Shown piece after piece: positions 6,646 to 20,516 of a stretch of 64,000 nt of DNA. The notes below the pieces were generated by a model that was given only the letters and a program-made list of their open reading frames with translations, was not told where the DNA came from and ran no database searches. Both the position numbers and the translations under genes were made by a program. Each line of letters opens with the position of its first letter. Position 1 is the stretch's first letter. Source of the DNA: Deltaproteobacteria bacterium (lineage in GTDB: Bacteria; UBA10199; JACPAL01; JAHFST01); assembly GCA_023265625.1 (NCBI GenBank), contig JAHFST010000010.1:1-64000 (forward strand), in the 5' to 3' direction.

Positions 6646-6945
6646 ATGGCATCCATCTTGCTTATTCATTACCTTAGAATGAAAAGCCAAATCCCGGAAA
6701 GTGGCACTATCTTGGAAACGTTGCAGTTTGAGGCAGGGGGGGATGCCTCAGAGGGCGACGGTCCCGTGGTGATGAGTTGCGGGGGGATGCATATTCATCA
6801 TGGGCGGCATTCTTCAGAATTGGAGGGGTGGCGTCCCATGATTCATACGATGTCGCCCAGTTCCCCAGTCAAGATTTTTAGCCTGATCTCCGAAGACACC
6901 CAGGACCCCTTCCTAGAAATAGTCAATCGCGAATGTCTGAATTAA
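6646..6945 (+). CDS. Hypothetical protein, weakly supported
   Basis: This 99-residue open frame lies in the 465-base space between uvrC and ilvE. No family was recognised. It contains an unusual GGMHIHHGRHSSE stretch with a His cluster and a Cys just before it. No Shine-Dalgarno sequence is seen before the ATG at 6646 or the internal ATG at 6679, and the region upstream is AT-rich. It could be a real small gene or chance. Apart from this frame and the stem-loop after uvrC, nothing else is seen in the gap. Confidence 0.3.
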   Translation: MASILLIHYLRMKSQIPESGTILETLQFEAGGDASEGDGPVVMSCGGMHIHHGRHSSELEGWRPMIHTMSPSSPVKIFSLISEDTQDPFLEIVNRECLN

Positions 6946-6952
6946 TCGATCG

Positions 6953-7867
6953 TTAGACCTGATCCAACCAAGCGGCATATTTCTTATTTTGTCCCCGCAC
7001 AATCTCAAAGAAGAGTTGTTGGATTTGCTGCGTGACGGGTCCCGGTTTTCCCGGGCCGATCATGCGGTCATCAACCTCGCGGATGGGGGTGATCTCGGCC
7101 GCGGTGCCGGTCAGGAAGACTTCGTCGGCGAGATAGAGCTCATCGCGGGTGAATTTTTCTGAAATCACTTCAATGGACAGGTCCTTGAGCAGGGTGCGGA
7201 CCGAGGCGGCCGTGATGCCATCGAGAATCGAGGCCCCTGCCGGAGTGGTCTTGACCGTGCCTTGTTTGACGATGAAGATGTTTTCCCCGGTGGCCTCGGC
7301 GACATAACCTTCCGTGTCCAACAGGATGGCTTCTTCGTAACCCGCCATGACGGCCTCGCGCTTGGCTAAAATAGAATTCACATACGTGGCGCAGGTCTTG
7401 GCCTTGTTCATGGTGGCGTTGACATGATGGCGCGTGAACGAGGAAATTTTCGTGCGAATCCCTTTTTTGACGCCCTCATCGCCCAGGTAGGTCCCCCAGG
7501 GCCAAGCGGCCACGGAAACCCGCGTCTGGTTTTTCGCATGCAACCCCATCTCCCCGTCGCCCATGAAGATGATGGGACGGATGTAGCCGTGCTTGAGACC
7601 ATTTTTAGAAATGGCATCTTTGCAAGCCTGCATGACCTCGGCCATGGGAAAGGGTACATCCAACAATAAGATCCGCGCCGAATCATAGAGCCGTTCGATG
7701 TGGGTCCGCAGCCGGAAGATGGCTGACCCACCCGCGGTGAGCTCATAACAACGAATTCCTTCAAACACACCCAGGCCGTAATGCAGGGTATGGGTCAAGA
7801 CATGAACCTGCGCCTGATCCCAGGGAACCATTTTACCGTCAAGCCAGATGAGGTTAGCTTTTTGCAT
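6953..7867 (-). CDS. ilvE: Branched-chain amino acid aminotransferase
   Basis: 304 residues, the normal length. It is a class IV PLP-dependent aminotransferase that interconverts leucine, isoleucine and valine with their 2-oxo acids. Seen motifs: [16 protein letters not shown] at the N-terminus, the PLP-lysine region NSILAKREA, the [12 protein letters not shown] segment, and [11 protein letters not shown] with [12 protein letters not shown] near the end. These fit IlvE better than D-amino-acid transaminase or aminodeoxychorismate lyase. Monocistronic on the minus strand. The 200 bases upstream, shared with the toxin-antitoxin-like pair, hold a hairpin with ATCTC/GAGAT ends (7950-7971). Confidence 0.93.
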
Positions 7868-8024
7868 AATTCAAAACGGCGGCCACGATAGCGTTTCGCG
7901 GGACAGGCTGTCTAGGGATTTTTTGTGAGGGTCATGATCAACGGAGACCATCTCGGGGTTGTCCTGAGATAGGTTGCCTGAAACCCGACCTTTATAATGG
8001 AAACTACTCATTAATTTCTTTCTC

Positions 8025-16129: not shown

Positions 16130-16547
16130 CAAAATAGTGGGGGTGTTGTTCCTCAGTGTGTTGATGTCTTGTGCGCCAGGGGCTAAGCCAAAGCATCCGA
16201 AACCGGGTTCGGAATCACACCTCCCCCCTGTCTTGTCTCCCATCGATTTGGAGACTCCGGAACGGACGGCCGCCAATCAGGTGATTGCTGAGGGGCGGGT
16301 GCAATTGGAGCAGGGGAACTATGCGCGGGCTTCTGACCTTTTTCAGGAAGCGGTGACACTCGATCCGACCAATGGAGCCGGCTATTATTATTTGGCTGCT
16401 GCGAAGGCGCAATTGGGTGAGACGGGTGAATCGACCGGTTTGTTGGAAAAAGCAGAACAGCTGCTAGCGAGTGATCCAGCCTGGCAGGTTCAACTGGACG
16501 AATTAAAATTAAAGCTGACCGAACATCAGCCTAGTCCTCGTGACTGA
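16116..16547 (+). CDS. TPR-containing lipoprotein
   Basis: 143 residues. It starts inside the end of the PBP gene (14-base overlap). A lipoprotein signal ends in LMSC (Cys19). After a Pro-rich linker comes a TPR-like unit, roughly VQLEQGNYARASDLFQEA and AGYYYLAAAKAQLGETGES. The arrangement after a PBP1b-like gene suggests a lipoprotein cofactor of the synthase, analogous in position but not in sequence to LpoB; this is inference. Its 3' end overlaps the convergent DUF3047 gene by 17 bases. Confidence 0.7.
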   Translation: MKMNNKIVGVLFLSVLMSCAPGAKPKHPKPGSESHLPPVLSPIDLETPERTAANQVIAEGRVQLEQGNYARASDLFQEAVTLDPTNGAGYYYLAAAKAQLGETGESTGLLEKAEQLLASDPAWQVQLDELKLKLTEHQPSPRD

Positions 16548-17196
16548 CCTGAAAATCGTCATAATCGCAGGCGGCGGTGGTTTGGAGGGCATTGCCGTCT
16601 GTTAAAATGCCAAATCCTGATGGTGGTCGGCTTGGCGGCATTTTGAAGAGACGTTGGTAGTCTTGCAGGGCGTTAATGGATACCGCGTGCCATTGTTTCA
16701 ATCGCGACTCCCCAGAGTTCACGACCACCAGGTAAAAATGTCCCGGTTTTTTCTCGATGATGGTGCCGACCGGCAAGGTGCTGCTCCAGACATATTTGAT
16801 GGCCGTTCCAGTGTATTTTCCAAAGACGACATAGACCCCGCAAGCGCTATCGTTGGTGTCGGCGTTACGTTCATCCCCACCTGCCGGAATCGTTTGGGCC
16901 CGCCATCTCCAGGAAAGTTTTGGATATTCATTGGTTGCCCAACTAAATTCCCGAAAGATTTGCACCGAGAAGTTTTGCGAGTCTAAGGCCCGCAAGAAGT
17001 GATTTCCATGTTCCGCAGCAACCTGATAAACCTCCCGTGCCTTCCCTCGTTGAAAGGGATAGGTCCGCCAGTTCACCGGAAACTTTCCTTCCGGTCCTCC
17101 CTGAAAGTCCTCGATGATTCGCACGGTCCCAGCCTTTGGAGGAGTGTAGGCCTGCGCAGAAGCAGACAACAGAAGTAAAAAGGCCAATAATTTCAC
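16531..17196 (-). CDS. DUF3047 family secreted protein
   Basis: 221 residues. A cleavable signal peptide is seen (ends near SASAQA). The body has the family pattern: IIEDFQGGPEGKFPVNW, LSWRWRAQTIPAGGDER with NDSACGVYVVFG, and a terminal DYDDFQVS. DUF3047 proteins are periplasmic beta-sandwich-like proteins of unknown function. Convergent with the TPR lipoprotein and divergent from the small-protein cassette at 17317. Confidence 0.8.
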   Translation of the reverse strand: MKLLAFLLLLSASAQAYTPPKAGTVRIIEDFQGGPEGKFPVNWRTYPFQRGKAREVYQVAAEHGNHFLRALDSQNFSVQIFREFSWATNEYPKLSWRWRAQTIPAGGDERNADTNDSACGVYVVFGKYTGTAIKYVWSSTLPVGTIIEKKPGHFYLVVVNSGESRLKQWHAVSINALQDYQRLFKMPPSRPPSGFGILTDGNALQTTAACDYDDFQVSHED

Positions 17197-17316
17197 GGGC
17201 CGATTCTAGTGTTTGCCGGTTCAAAGTCAAAGGGAATTTTGTAAGCCTGTAAGTCCTTGCAGGAGGTGTTCTTTTTTGGTACGTTTTTTTTTTAACCATC
17301 TTTTAAGGAGGTTTCC

Positions 17317-17520
17317 ATGAGTCGCCAAATAATTGGGTTATTGATGGACCGATGGATCAACGATCCAGAATTTCGCAAGCAACTGAAGAAGGACTCCATA
17401 GCTACCGTTACCTCAATGGGGGTTAAGCTTGAGGAAGAGGAACTGACGGTGTTAAAGAAGATTGATTGGAGCCTATCGGATGAGGAATTACAAAAACGGG
17501 TCAGTAATTTCTTTAGCTAA
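17317..17520 (+). CDS. Small NHLP/Os1348-like protein, candidate modified-peptide precursor
   Basis: 67 residues. The pattern MDRWINDPEFRKQL, then a helix ending GVKLEEEELTVLKKIDW, resembles short nitrile-hydratase-leader-clan (Os1348-like/LigA-like) proteins that are candidate RiPP precursors. A strong AAGGAGGT site (17305-17312) precedes the ATG, stronger than its neighbours' sites, as expected for a highly translated peptide. It contains no Cys and has two Trp (13 and 51); no double-Gly cleavage site or obvious core peptide is visible. The next gene starts 3 bases later and encodes an isoprenyl-synthase-like enzyme, and the third encodes a PqqD-like/protease fusion. Precursor status is inference. 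Alternatively it is a small regulatory or carrier protein. Confidence 0.7.
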   Translation: MSRQIIGLLMDRWINDPEFRKQLKKDSIATVTSMGVKLEEEELTVLKKIDWSLSDEELQKRVSNFFS

Positions 17521-17523
17521 ACA

Positions 17524-18510
17524 ATGCATTGGACGTCGCAACGCACTGAGGAATTGTTAGGGCTTGCCTCTGAGTTTGTCCGGTTCCATGTTCACCACCC
17601 TCGACAATTAAAGTTCTTGCAAAGAGCTCTGGCCGGATTGCAGACACAACTTAAGGACCTCGAGTCGCCGCCGTTTTTTATGACGATCCCGTTGTTGGTT
17701 CATTCCGCCATTAGGGACGATGAGCCAGCGGCTCGGGTCTTGGCCATCGCAACGACCTTGCTTTTTTTAGGCATCGATATCTTGGATGACATTGCTGATG
17801 GAGATCTCCCGAATCATTGGCAGGGTTTCAAGTCCTCTGAGATTCAGCTGATGGGCGCAACGTTGCTCGCGACTTTGCCACAGATTGCCATTGCCACATT
17901 GAAGACCTCTTCACAGGTTATTGCTGACATGCATAAGACCCTGGCAGAAGCCTTGCTGCGGATGAGTGCAGGCCAGGAGTCGGATCTGACTCTCTCGGAG
18001 AGCGATAACCTGACATCGGAGGTTGTGGAGGCGTCGGTGGTGGCCAAGAGTGGCGAAGAAATTGGGCTCTTTGCTAGCCTGGCGGCCCAGCTGGCCCAGG
18101 CCCCGCAAACGGTGGTTGAGCACTATGCTGTGATGGGACGGGAGCTGGGGACGGCGGGACAGTTGGTCTCGGATTGCCATGATCTGTTTCAGTCACAAGT
18201 CAGTCGCGATCTGGCCAATGGAACCCGAACTTTTCCCTTGGCCCTCTACCTGGAAAAAAAGCGCGGGCAGGAACGACAGGAATTTTTACTCCTGCTGGGA
18301 CAGGCGCGCCAAGGGCGGCCGGTCCTTAAGTCGGTTCGACAATGTCTCCATGAATCGGGGGTGTTGCGGATGACCGCGTTTGTGGTGGAACTCCACTGTC
18401 AACGGGCTCAGGAGGCGCTGTTGAAGGCTAAGCCACTTGAGCCAGCGGCCTCCGCGTTACGTGCCACCATCGACAATATTTCATTTTTTACCAAGGGTAA
18501 GGTTGTTTAA
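17524..18510 (+). CDS. Polyprenyl-synthetase-family enzyme with atypical substrate site
   Basis: 328 residues, trans-isoprenyl diphosphate synthase fold. The first Asp-rich motif is intact (ILDDIADGDLPNHWQG, a DDxxD). The second is degenerate (QLVSDCHDLF, with Ser for the first Asp), followed by the conserved RDLANGTRTFPLALYL segment. The usual N-terminal GGKRxRP segment that holds isopentenyl diphosphate is absent; LESPPFFMTIPLLVHS occupies its place. This suggests an enzyme that ionises a prenyl diphosphate but uses another acceptor or cyclises it, comparable in logic to ComQ, which prenylates a Trp of a small peptide. It lies 3 bases after the small-protein gene and its stop overlaps the next start (TAATG). 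Confidence 0.75.
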   Translation: MHWTSQRTEELLGLASEFVRFHVHHPRQLKFLQRALAGLQTQLKDLESPPFFMTIPLLVHSAIRDDEPAARVLAIATTLLFLGIDILDDIADGDLPNHWQGFKSSEIQLMGATLLATLPQIAIATLKTSSQVIADMHKTLAEALLRMSAGQESDLTLSESDNLTSEVVEASVVAKSGEEIGLFASLAAQLAQAPQTVVEHYAVMGRELGTAGQLVSDCHDLFQSQVSRDLANGTRTFPLALYLEKKRGQERQEFLLLLGQARQGRPVLKSVRQCLHESGVLRMTAFVVELHCQRAQEALLKAKPLEPAASALRATIDNISFFTKGKVV

Positions 18511-20516
18511 TGCCCCATGCCTCAAACTTTGAATCACGAATCCTCTTACTGTTAGGCGTGCCCGCGTTTCGAGATTTGCCCGTTGCTACCTTGAGGGAGG
18601 TCGCAAGCCAGTTGCTTCCGGCTACATTTCAGCCGGAGGCCCTCATCATTCGGGAGGGGGATGTGGGCGATCGGCTTTATCTCATTGAACACGGTCATGC
18701 CGAGGTTATTACCCAATCAGGGAGCGATACAGTTGTTTTGGCGACGCTTGCCCCTGGAGAAATTTTTGGGCAAATGGCCTTGCTATTTCCAGGCGCCAAA
18801 CGTTCTGCCACAGTCAAGGCGAGCACAACACTGCGGGTTCTGGCACTGGAGATTCATGTTTTTACCGATCTTCTCAACCGGCACCCTCAAACCAAGGCGA
18901 TTTTTTCAGAAATGGTCAAAAGGTTGGCCACTTATAATTTTCTCAAACTGGCGAGTCCCTTTGGTGCCCTCGATTTGGATAATTTGCAGGCGCTCACAGC
19001 AAAATTGCAAACGAAGTCCGTAGCCACCGGTGTGGTGATTTTACGTCAGGGGGAACCAGGCGATGCCTGCTATTTGATCCAGCAGGGGCGGGTTGAGGTT
19101 GTTGAGCGGGGTAAGTCAGGTGAAGAAAAATCCTTGGCTCAACTGGGACCTGGGTGTTTGTTTGGGGAGGCGGCCTTGCTCACTGACACACCCCGGAGTG
19201 CGACTGTGCGGGCGCTTGAACCCTGTGAATTGCTGGCGCTTAGCCGAATCGATTTATTGGCGGCGCTTGGTTCGAACCAAAAGCTAGGAAGTCAACTGTT
19301 GGAGATCTTGCAACTGCGTGATCGTCCGTACCAACGGCCCGGTATTGTTGTTTGCCACCGTCAGACCCATGAGGGTGTGTTCACGATCCTGAAAAATCCC
19401 CAACAAGGCACTTATTACCAATTATCCCCCGAGGGGTGGTTTATTTGGCAACAACTCGATGGTGAGCATAATTTAAGGGATCTCGCGATCAGTTACTTTG
19501 AGCAATTTAAGGCCTTTGCCCCCTATGCCATTGCGGCGACGATTGGCAAACTCGTCACGGCAGGTTTTGCCCGGAGCCGTCTCTCCAAGGTACGTATGGG
19601 GCGGGAACAGTCGTTATCGTGGTGGCAGCGTTTTGCACAATTTTCCAGGGGAGTTTTAGTGTGGCGCTTGCTTTTACAAAATGTGGATGGCCCCCTGAGT
19701 CGTCTTTACCACAGGCGATTTCGCTGGGTTTACACCTGGCCATCCCAAATTTTTCTGGGGATGGTGACCCTGTTGGGGGGTATTACCTTTTTTCAACAGG
19801 TACCCTCTGTAAAAATAGCCCTCACGCATATGCGGGTGCCAGCGGTTTGGGTGTTATTGATCCCCATGATCTTGTTTGCGGTGTTGGTTCATGAGGCGGG
19901 GCATGCCTTTACCACGAAGGCCTTTGGCCGTGAGGTGAGGTCAGTGGGTTTGGGTTGGTATTGGTTCGGCCCCATTTTTTTTGTGGATACCTCGGACATG
20001 TGGTTAGAAAAAAAATGGCCGCGGGTGGCGGTGAGCCTGTCTGGCGTCTATGCCAATTTGGTCTTGGCGGGCATTGCCTCCCTCATAGGTTGGTGTTTTC
20101 ACGATAGCTCGTGGGTAGATGTCTGTTGGATTTTTGCACTGGGCTCGTACGTGGCTGTTTTGGTGAACCTCAATCCCCTCATGGAGTATGATGGGTACTA
20201 CGTCCTCATGGACTTGCTGGAACGGCCCAACCTTCGGCGTCATTGCCTATCCTGGCTGGGCCGGGAGTTTCCCAAGGCGATACGAAATCCCGCGCTGCTT
20301 AAAAACCATGGGTTGGAACTATTTTTTGGCCTGGGCTCGCTCCTCTATGTTATTTTCATGATCCTACAGTCTGTGGTGATGTATCATGTGTTTGTCAGTG
20401 ATTTGATTCATCCGTATCTTCCGCACTTTTTGACCGCTTCATTGGCTTGGTTGGTGGCTGGCGTGACTTTTTTGTTTTGTATGCTTGGGGTGGTGGGTGA
20501 CTTGCGCGAGACTTAG
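18510..20516 (+). CDS. cNMP-binding x2 + PqqD-like + M50 site-2 protease fusion
   Basis: 668 residues. Domain order: cyclic-nucleotide-binding domain 1 (about 15-135, phosphate cassette GEIFGQMALLFPGAKRSAT with Gln for the usual Glu); domain 2 (about 145-270, canonical GCLFGEAALLTDTPRSAT); PqqD-like region (about 280-365, GTYYQLSPEGWFIWQQLDG); then membrane segments with an M50 zinc protease core: HEAGH at about 461 and LNPLMEYDGYY at about 553. Both metal-binding motifs are complete. PqqD-like domains bind leader peptides in RiPP systems, and M50 proteases cut in or near membranes, so a role in recognising and processing or exporting the 67-residue product is plausible. Last gene of the cassette. 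Confidence 0.85.
   Translation: MPHASNFESRILLLLGVPAFRDLPVATLREVASQLLPATFQPEALIIREGDVGDRLYLIEHGHAEVITQSGSDTVVLATLAPGEIFGQMALLFPGAKRSATVKASTTLRVLALEIHVFTDLLNRHPQTKAIFSEMVKRLATYNFLKLASPFGALDLDNLQALTAKLQTKSVATGVVILRQGEPGDACYLIQQGRVEVVERGKSGEEKSLAQLGPGCLFGEAALLTDTPRSATVRALEPCELLALSRIDLLAALGSNQKLGSQLLEILQLRDRPYQRPGIVVCHRQTHEGVFTILKNPQQGTYYQLSPEGWFIWQQLDGEHNLRDLAISYFEQFKAFAPYAIAATIGKLVTAGFARSRLSKVRMGREQSLSWWQRFAQFSRGVLVWRLLLQNVDGPLSRLYHRRFRWVYTWPSQIFLGMVTLLGGITFFQQVPSVKIALTHMRVPAVWVLLIPMILFAVLVHEAGHAFTTKAFGREVRSVGLGWYWFGPIFFVDTSDMWLEKKWPRVAVSLSGVYANLVLAGIASLIGWCFHDSSWVDVCWIFALGSYVAVLVNLNPLMEYDGYYVLMDLLERPNLRRHCLSWLGREFPKAIRNPALLKNHGLELFFGLGSLLYVIFMILQSVVMYHVFVSDLIHPYLPHFLTASLAWLVAGVTFLFCMLGVVGDLRET

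Follow-up and report, generated by a model that had tools for sequence, protein, structure and literature searches.

A candidate prenylated-peptide cassette combining an NHLP-clan small protein, an isoprenoid-synthase-fold enzyme, and a cNMP/PqqD/M50 fusion protein

Described systems related to the cassette

To our knowledge, only a handful of peptide prenyltransferases with the isoprene synthase fold have been described (ComQ, PalQ, and ChrPC-P). Here we describe three adjacent genes on contig JAHFST010000010.1 of a deltaproteobacterial assembly (GCA_023265625.1), within the 64,000-nucleotide stretch that was analyzed (the window). They code for a small protein of the NHLP type, an isoprenoid-synthase-fold enzyme, and a fusion of cyclic nucleoside monophosphate (cNMP)-binding, PqqD-like, and M50 metalloprotease domains. 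We propose that they constitute a cassette for a prenylated lipopeptide resembling the ribosomally synthesized and post-translationally modified peptides (RiPPs).

All characterized prenyltransferases resembling trans-isoprenyl diphosphate synthases modify tryptophan (Trp) (PMC13290415). In the PalQ-PalX system of Paenibacillus alvei, an NHLP precursor is paired with a Trp prenyltransferase of the isoprene synthase fold, and the NHLP domain enhances prenylation (PMC10853753). The window cassette likewise places an NHLP-type precursor candidate beside an isoprene-synthase-fold enzyme, and the Gln preceding the second aspartate-rich motif (SARM) is conserved (PMC10853753). However, PalX ends in a C-terminal Trp core, DNVRRFFW, whose terminal Trp is modified by PalQ, whereas the conserved Trp51 of the window protein is internal and the tail is mostly Trp-less. 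Further, the PalQX cluster includes a histidine kinase, whereas the cassette has the cNMP/PqqD/M50 fusion, and PalQ, which was compared by description only, keeps D200 and D204, whereas the cassette enzyme has a pseudo-SARM. ComQ shares with the enzyme an intact first aspartate-rich motif (FARM), a SARM in which only the second Asp is kept, and an adjacent small precursor gene; its ComX precursor, with 53-58 aa, is similar in size to the 67-aa small protein (PMC5331326). Introduction of an Asp at the first SARM position of ComQ sharply lowers Trp geranylation (PMC5331326). The Trp of ComX is third or fourth from the C terminus, whereas Trp51 is 17th, and the comQXPA operon, which serves quorum sensing together with ComP/ComA, is described in the source text without an NHLP domain or M50 fusion (PMC5331326).

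Os1348 of Pseudomonas sp. Os17, an 85-aa protein with a role in antibiotic activity, belongs to the same NCBI clan (NF038399) as the window small protein and is encoded upstream of putative post-translational-modification and transporter genes; its partners are said to include an acetyltransferase, without mention of a prenyl enzyme or a cNMP fusion (PMC7726476). The PqqD-like and M50 region of the fusion resembles the daptide protease (NF041824), but it scores 143.7 bits against an equivalog cutoff of 300 and is preceded in the protein by additional cNMP domains; the cassettes showed no further genes for daptide biosynthesis. TIGR03896, which describes cNMP proteins of bacteriocin-type transport and thus another cNMP domain in a peptide maturation context, also matches (5.4e-19), but at 68.7 bits against a cutoff of 161 and with an architecture unlike that of the fusion. 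In the literature searched, mostly articles outside subscription journals, we found no description of the full gene set with the cNMP/PqqD/M50 fusion. The earlier statement from the sequence-only reading that no described system has this gene set needs softening, because PalQ-PalX pairs an NHLP precursor with a Trp prenyltransferase.

Organization of the cassette

The following features make up the cassette.

17305 to 17312, + strand: AAGGAGGT, ribosome-binding site of the small gene, 5 nt upstream of the ATG at 17317 (direct reading)
17317 to 17520, + strand: small gene; 67-aa protein of the Os1348/NHLP clan, proposed RiPP-like precursor (open reading frame [ORF] list, NF038399, alignments of relatives)
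17524 to 18510, + strand: enzyme gene; 328-aa isoprenoid-synthase-fold enzyme, proposed peptide prenyltransferase (ORF list, Pfam polyprenyl_synt, motifs, AlphaFold2, Foldseek)
18510 to 20516, + strand: fusion gene; 668 aa with two cNMP domains, a PqqD-like domain, and a membrane M50 metalloprotease (ORF list, Pfam, NCBIfam, alignment)

The three genes are real and tightly coupled. The enzyme gene starts 3 nt past the stop codon of the small gene (TAA ACA ATG) and lacks an evident ribosome-binding site, and the start of the fusion gene overlaps the end of the enzyme gene (TAATG). This layout, first noted in the sequence-only reading, was borne out by the ORFs and direct reading, and Pfam and NCBIfam profiles upheld the accompanying family calls. 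Comparison of the small genes of two relatives, G004 and G002 (G and L labels denote genomes and loci of the analysis; the window genome is G000), revealed 24 synonymous versus 15 nonsynonymous codon changes over 66 codons, and two copies within G016 differ by 20 synonymous versus 17 nonsynonymous changes over 65 codons. Since synonymous changes dominate, given the number of sites, and the gene set recurs in unrelated genomes, the small genes are more than chance ORFs.

Conservation of the cassette across lineages

We surveyed 385 genomes, mostly from phyla other than that of the window, with thresholds of E<1e-18 for the small protein and E<1e-100 for the fusion; window-type enzymes were defined as full-length relatives with neighboring or co-occurring partners. 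Such enzymes were found in seven genomes (G000, G002, G003, G004, G016, G172, and G176), small proteins in exactly the same seven, and fusions in those seven plus an orphan in G010. A naive hypergeometric estimate for the seven-of-seven overlap, which ignores relatedness, is ~4e-15. A scan of named genomes recovered three further loci (L071, L072, and L073) in two metagenome-assembled genomes (MAGs) labeled Elusimicrobia, JAHFCE01 and JACQPJ01. Both G172 and G176 lie outside the class of the window, so that approximately four independent lineages can be counted: the window class, G172, G176, and Elusimicrobia. The cassette is thus a conserved unit beyond close relatives, which answers the co-occurrence check that the first reading had proposed.

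Gene order varies between small-enzyme-fusion and enzyme-small-fusion, with adjacency preserved in most loci. In the class-mates G002, G003, G004, and G016, the three families adjoin in the order enzyme-small-fusion, whereas L071, with three small genes followed by the enzyme and the fusion, has the gene order of the window. L073 combines enzyme and fusion with a small gene on the opposite strand, and L072 has the enzyme with four small genes. Tandem small genes in three or four copies are found in G016 (four), L071 (three), and L072 (four). The enzyme of G176 is on a different contig from its two small genes and fusion; therefore, co-occurrence stands there even without linkage. The enzyme is distributed unevenly, with 2 of 291 genomes carrying it in the G176 phylum and 1 of 149 in the G172 phylum, a pattern consistent with horizontal transfer. 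Among 72,556 plasmid records, there was no enzyme match and no fusion match over more than 80% of its length.

The enzyme

The enzyme is recovered by the Pfam polyprenyl_synt profile above the cutoff (8.5e-14), and its AlphaFold2 model (mean predicted local distance difference test score, 91.6; predicted template modeling score [pTM], 0.91) adopts the isoprenoid synthase fold, with diphosphate synthases as its top Foldseek matches (TM score, ~0.8). It displays a FARM of the form DDIAD (residues 88-92), K175, Q213, a pseudo-SARM SDCHD (216-220), and R235. Comparison of 17 family members with 15 canonical synthases encoded in these same genomes revealed that the first SARM Asp is replaced by Ser or Thr in all 17, whereas it is Asp in 15/15 canonical synthases, and that the GGKR motif and the Arg-Arg pair following the FARM are absent from the enzyme family in the present comparison with the 15 canonical synthases. 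The second SARM Asp is retained throughout the family (17/17), Lys175 is kept too, and the DDxxD form of the FARM is exact in 16 of the 17 members, G424 having DNVFD. Gln213 is likewise kept in 17/17, but it is nondiscriminating, as canonical synthases also have a Gln there. The two independent motif losses suggest that the enzyme is a non-elongating transferase. The pseudo-SARM, as in ComQ, together with the loss of residues of the isopentenyl diphosphate (IPP) site, agrees with the ComQ-type likeness suggested earlier from the sequence. In a tree of the family together with canonical synthases, its members group apart from the latter, some branches being long (Shimodaira-Hasegawa-like approximate likelihood ratio test support, 100). 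By analogy with the described systems, the enzyme is a candidate peptide Trp prenyltransferase.

The small protein

The small protein belongs to the RiPP-precursor-like family NF038399 (NH_RiPP_Os17; 49.7 bits versus a cutoff of 40) rather than to a stand-alone housekeeping family. Window-type copies that were tested score between 44.7 and 62.8 bits, and divergent copies (see below) fall under the cutoff. Its profile also matches 6lk7_A, an 85-aa entry named nitrile hydratase alpha chain, at 8.8e-5. Four helices are predicted, and Trp51 falls in a loop that connects the fourth with the C-terminal helix.

Among 19 window-type copies, Trp13 is invariant and lies within the first predicted helix, which suggests a structural role; Trp51 is conserved in 18 amid variable neighboring positions and lies within a conserved D-W loop. 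The sequence-only reading had named either Trp as a possible acceptor; the predicted loop position of Trp51, as opposed to the helical position of Trp13, suggests that Trp51 is the better candidate. A conserved Ser-Lys (S-K/N, 63-64) is followed by one to four mostly hydrophobic residues, FFS in the window. These tails (FFS, WLA, Y, IP, GM, M, GA, VA, LFV, AFG, LP, and MMAS) mark the point at which the protein varies most (entropy at position 65, 2.93 bits) and differ even between tandem copies of one genome.

The fusion protein

The N-terminal half of the fusion contains two cNMP domains (9e-46), and the C-terminal half contains a Peptidase_M50 domain recovered above the cutoff (1.1e-7). Between them, at approximately residues 280-360, is a PqqD-like domain scoring 20.9 bits, just under the Pfam cutoff of 23.4; the L071 orthologue exceeds it (26.0 bits), and the other copies tested fall below. 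The NCBIfam profile daptide_HExxH (NF041824) matches residues 280-629 at 8e-42. Both M50 motifs are present (HEAGH at 461 and NPLMEYDG at 555), the part of the protein from residue 443 onward contains five strongly hydrophobic segments, and an alignment revealed intact motifs also in G003, G016, G004, L071, L073, and G172. In the orphan G010 fusion, the first M50 motif reads QELGH, and the protein stops short of the second. The daptide protease-like PqqD-M50 half and, in the window copy, the intact M50 active site and cNMP phosphate-binding motif agree with the sequence-only reading.

The second cNMP domain of the window copy has a canonical phosphate-binding segment, FGEAALLTDTPRSATV, the window genome codes for three nucleotidyl cyclases of class III, and the G010 fusion gene begins within the end of a CHASE2-cyclase gene; these observations make cNMP control of the protease plausible. 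The G004 and G002 fusions have a single cNMP domain each.

The orphan cNMP-PqqD-M50 fusion, whose protease motif is degraded, lies in L042 (9013-11735, - strand), where genes for a CHASE2-adenylate cyclase and a FecR-domain protein immediately precede it. Related architectures were also encountered. Proteins of ~1,000-1,130 aa in L044 (1112-4375), L045 (6270-9227), and L046 (4660-8040, - strand) have the reverse architecture, with PqqD-M50 on the N-terminal side and two cNMP domains on the C-terminal side. In G004, a further, stand-alone protein of the form cNMP-cNMP-PqqD, lacking the protease, is encoded ~118 kb from the cassette (L047, 6565-7746), and the window genome has a stand-alone double-cNMP protein (L002, 1480-2250; G000:C6:5978-6715) that shares 43% identity with the N-terminal half of the fusion.

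Neighboring genes in relatives

An export-type ATP-binding cassette transporter operon lies beside the cassette in four loci. In L072, TolC-DevB-DevC-DevA, with a C-terminal extension on DevA, directly precedes the enzyme, which is followed by the four small genes; the cassettes of G002, G003, and G004 are flanked by genes for LolD, LolC/E-like permeases, and LolA-like proteins. In L073, a gene for a class II terpene-cyclase-like protein (6896-7912) overlaps the start of the enzyme gene; its product matches drimenol synthase over residues 27-317 (1.8e-11) and has, in a motif reading by eye, PDVDCS at the position of the class II DxDD-type motif. These neighbors point to a lipid-like, exported product.

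Proposed mechanism and competing explanations

Adjacent to the precursor candidate are encoded a putative modifying enzyme and a PqqD-like domain, a leader-binding type of domain akin to RiPP recognition elements. We favor, with a probability of about 0.6 for the general mechanism, a cassette for a prenylated RiPP-like lipopeptide that is processed by a membrane protease. The 67-aa precursor would be made with its folded NHLP-type domain acting as the leader, to which first the enzyme and subsequently the PqqD-like domain of the fusion would bind. The enzyme, having given up IPP elongation, would use an allylic diphosphate as donor of an isoprenyl group and attach this group to the precursor, most likely at Trp51. 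The lipidated precursor would then associate with the membrane, where the PqqD-like domain would capture the leader and the M50 domain would cut the peptide, probably under the control of cyclic nucleotide binding. The product, conceivably a signal or an antimicrobial, would be released or exported, an exporter being adjacent in several relatives. The cassette adds a separate enzyme clade from uncultured lineages, linked to a candidate for its small substrate and to a putative processing protease, with an exporter or a terpene cyclase also present in some genomes. If this proposal is right, it would extend peptide prenylation beyond the groups known to have it, provide new Trp-lipidation enzymes, and suggest second-messenger control over the release of a lipidated peptide. 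We offer only tentatively a narrower version, in which an enzyme of an undescribed ComQ-like clade prenylates an internal Trp of a membrane-anchored RiPP signal that is released by a PqqD-guided M50 cut only on a change in cAMP or cGMP; if true, it would link second-messenger state to lipopeptide export in uncultured bacterial lineages.

Several observations weigh against the prenylated-peptide proposal. Its main weakness as regards the Trp acceptor is a second enzyme group (G005, G009, G012, G025, G030, and G037, with a distant G424), which is mostly adjoined by a degenerate small gene without a conserved Trp; the divergent small proteins of L074, L076, L077, and L100 have none that is conserved, and that of L100 has no Trp at all. 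Even among window-type copies, the third L071 copy (7771-7971) has Leu at position 51. Trp51 is the 17th residue from the C terminus, unlike the acceptors of PalX and ComX, and conservation extends over almost the full length of the small protein, which leaves a very short variable core. Ordinary diphosphate synthases lead the structural neighbors of the enzyme, with the Trp prenyltransferase Ord1 only at rank 32 in Foldseek; Ord1 also matches the enzyme-family profile (1.9e-10), below several diphosphate synthases. In an artificial readthrough fusion of small protein and enzyme via the in-frame TAA (397 aa), both parts are predicted to fold, but the pTM is 0.84 versus 0.91 for the enzyme alone, and the model leaves the docking undecided. 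Finally, the G002 fusion has HDLGH instead of HExxH, and the window copy has no exporter beside it nor any of the other neighbors described above.

The near end-to-end conservation of the small protein would suit a partner or regulator of the enzyme, which could itself be a small-molecule terpene synthase or another allylic-diphosphate enzyme, with the fusion protease exerting control through cNMP-dependent degradation. A missing IPP site is also compatible with a class I terpene cyclase, L073 has a terpene-cyclase-like gene next to its enzyme gene, and the lipid-type exporters (DevBCA and Lol-like) beside some copies would suit a terpenoid product equally. However, the enzyme has no NSE/DTE-type motif, its second motif being SDxxDL; small genes repeated in tandem with differing tails are characteristic of substrates rather than of a subunit; and in the precedent, the pairing of an NHLP-clan protein with an isoprene-synthase-fold enzyme is one of substrate and prenyltransferase (PMC10853753). 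We consider this explanation unlikely.

Slightly less probable still, in our estimate, is that the enzyme targets a residue of the small protein other than these Trps, or carries out a different isoprenoid transfer, the conserved Trps being structural. The predicted helical setting of Trp13 and the incomplete conservation of Trp51 would accord with this, as would the divergent partners without the conserved Trp (none in L100), whose enzymes retain the pseudo-SARM. Yet Trp is the target of all characterized trans-isoprenyl diphosphate synthase-like prenyltransferases (PMC13290415), and the retention of Trp51 in 18 of 19 window-type copies stands out against its variable surroundings.

That the enzyme is an ordinary isoprenyl diphosphate synthase beside unrelated genes is very improbable: its fold and best sequence matches are those of diphosphate synthases, but the IPP-site residues are lost in 17/17 members of a separate clade, the window genome has a second, canonical synthase (L009), and the family adjoins and co-occurs with two others in several lineages, so that this candidate was dropped on motif loss and co-occurrence. 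A relationship to family 2B encapsulin systems, which combine cNMP domains and polyprenyl transferases (PMC8346489), is more improbable still and was dropped because no HK97-fold shell protein is present in the window genome, where matches to the shell model are confined to its cNMP region and nothing exceeds the cutoff; among NCBIfam models, the enzyme matches f2_encap_cargo4 best (8.3e-17, well under the cutoff) and the cNMP part matches encap_f2b, but the enzyme begins without a long disordered N-terminal cargo region.

Flanking features and the divergent loci

The cassette is flanked in the window by the following features.

16531 to 17196, - strand: divergent DUF3047 gene, upstream of the cassette (ORF list)
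17197 to 17316, no strand: intergenic region between the DUF3047 gene and the cassette, presumed cassette promoter region (ORF layout)
20652: S21-like ribosomal protein gene, downstream of the cassette (named from sequence reading only)

A consensus scan of 17197-17316 found no promoter-like site above chance on the + strand.

The loci of the divergent enzyme group, in which the enzymes retain the pseudo-SARM, have no fusion gene. Six of them carry, after the small gene or the enzyme, a gene for a lipoprotein of an undescribed family with 46-63% identity and WSGxAW and CPGGGTM motifs; three that were tested had no Pfam match.

L074, 1334 to 2239: lipoprotein gene
L075, 6967 to 7929, - strand: lipoprotein gene
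L076, 9179 to 10099: lipoprotein gene
L077, 6949 to 7569, - strand: lipoprotein gene
L078, 9313 to 10362: lipoprotein gene
L079, 1 to 293, - strand: lipoprotein gene

The L074 and L075 enzymes end in LFGM or LFGA, which resembles the ends of the small proteins of L074 and L076 (LFGM and FFGM).

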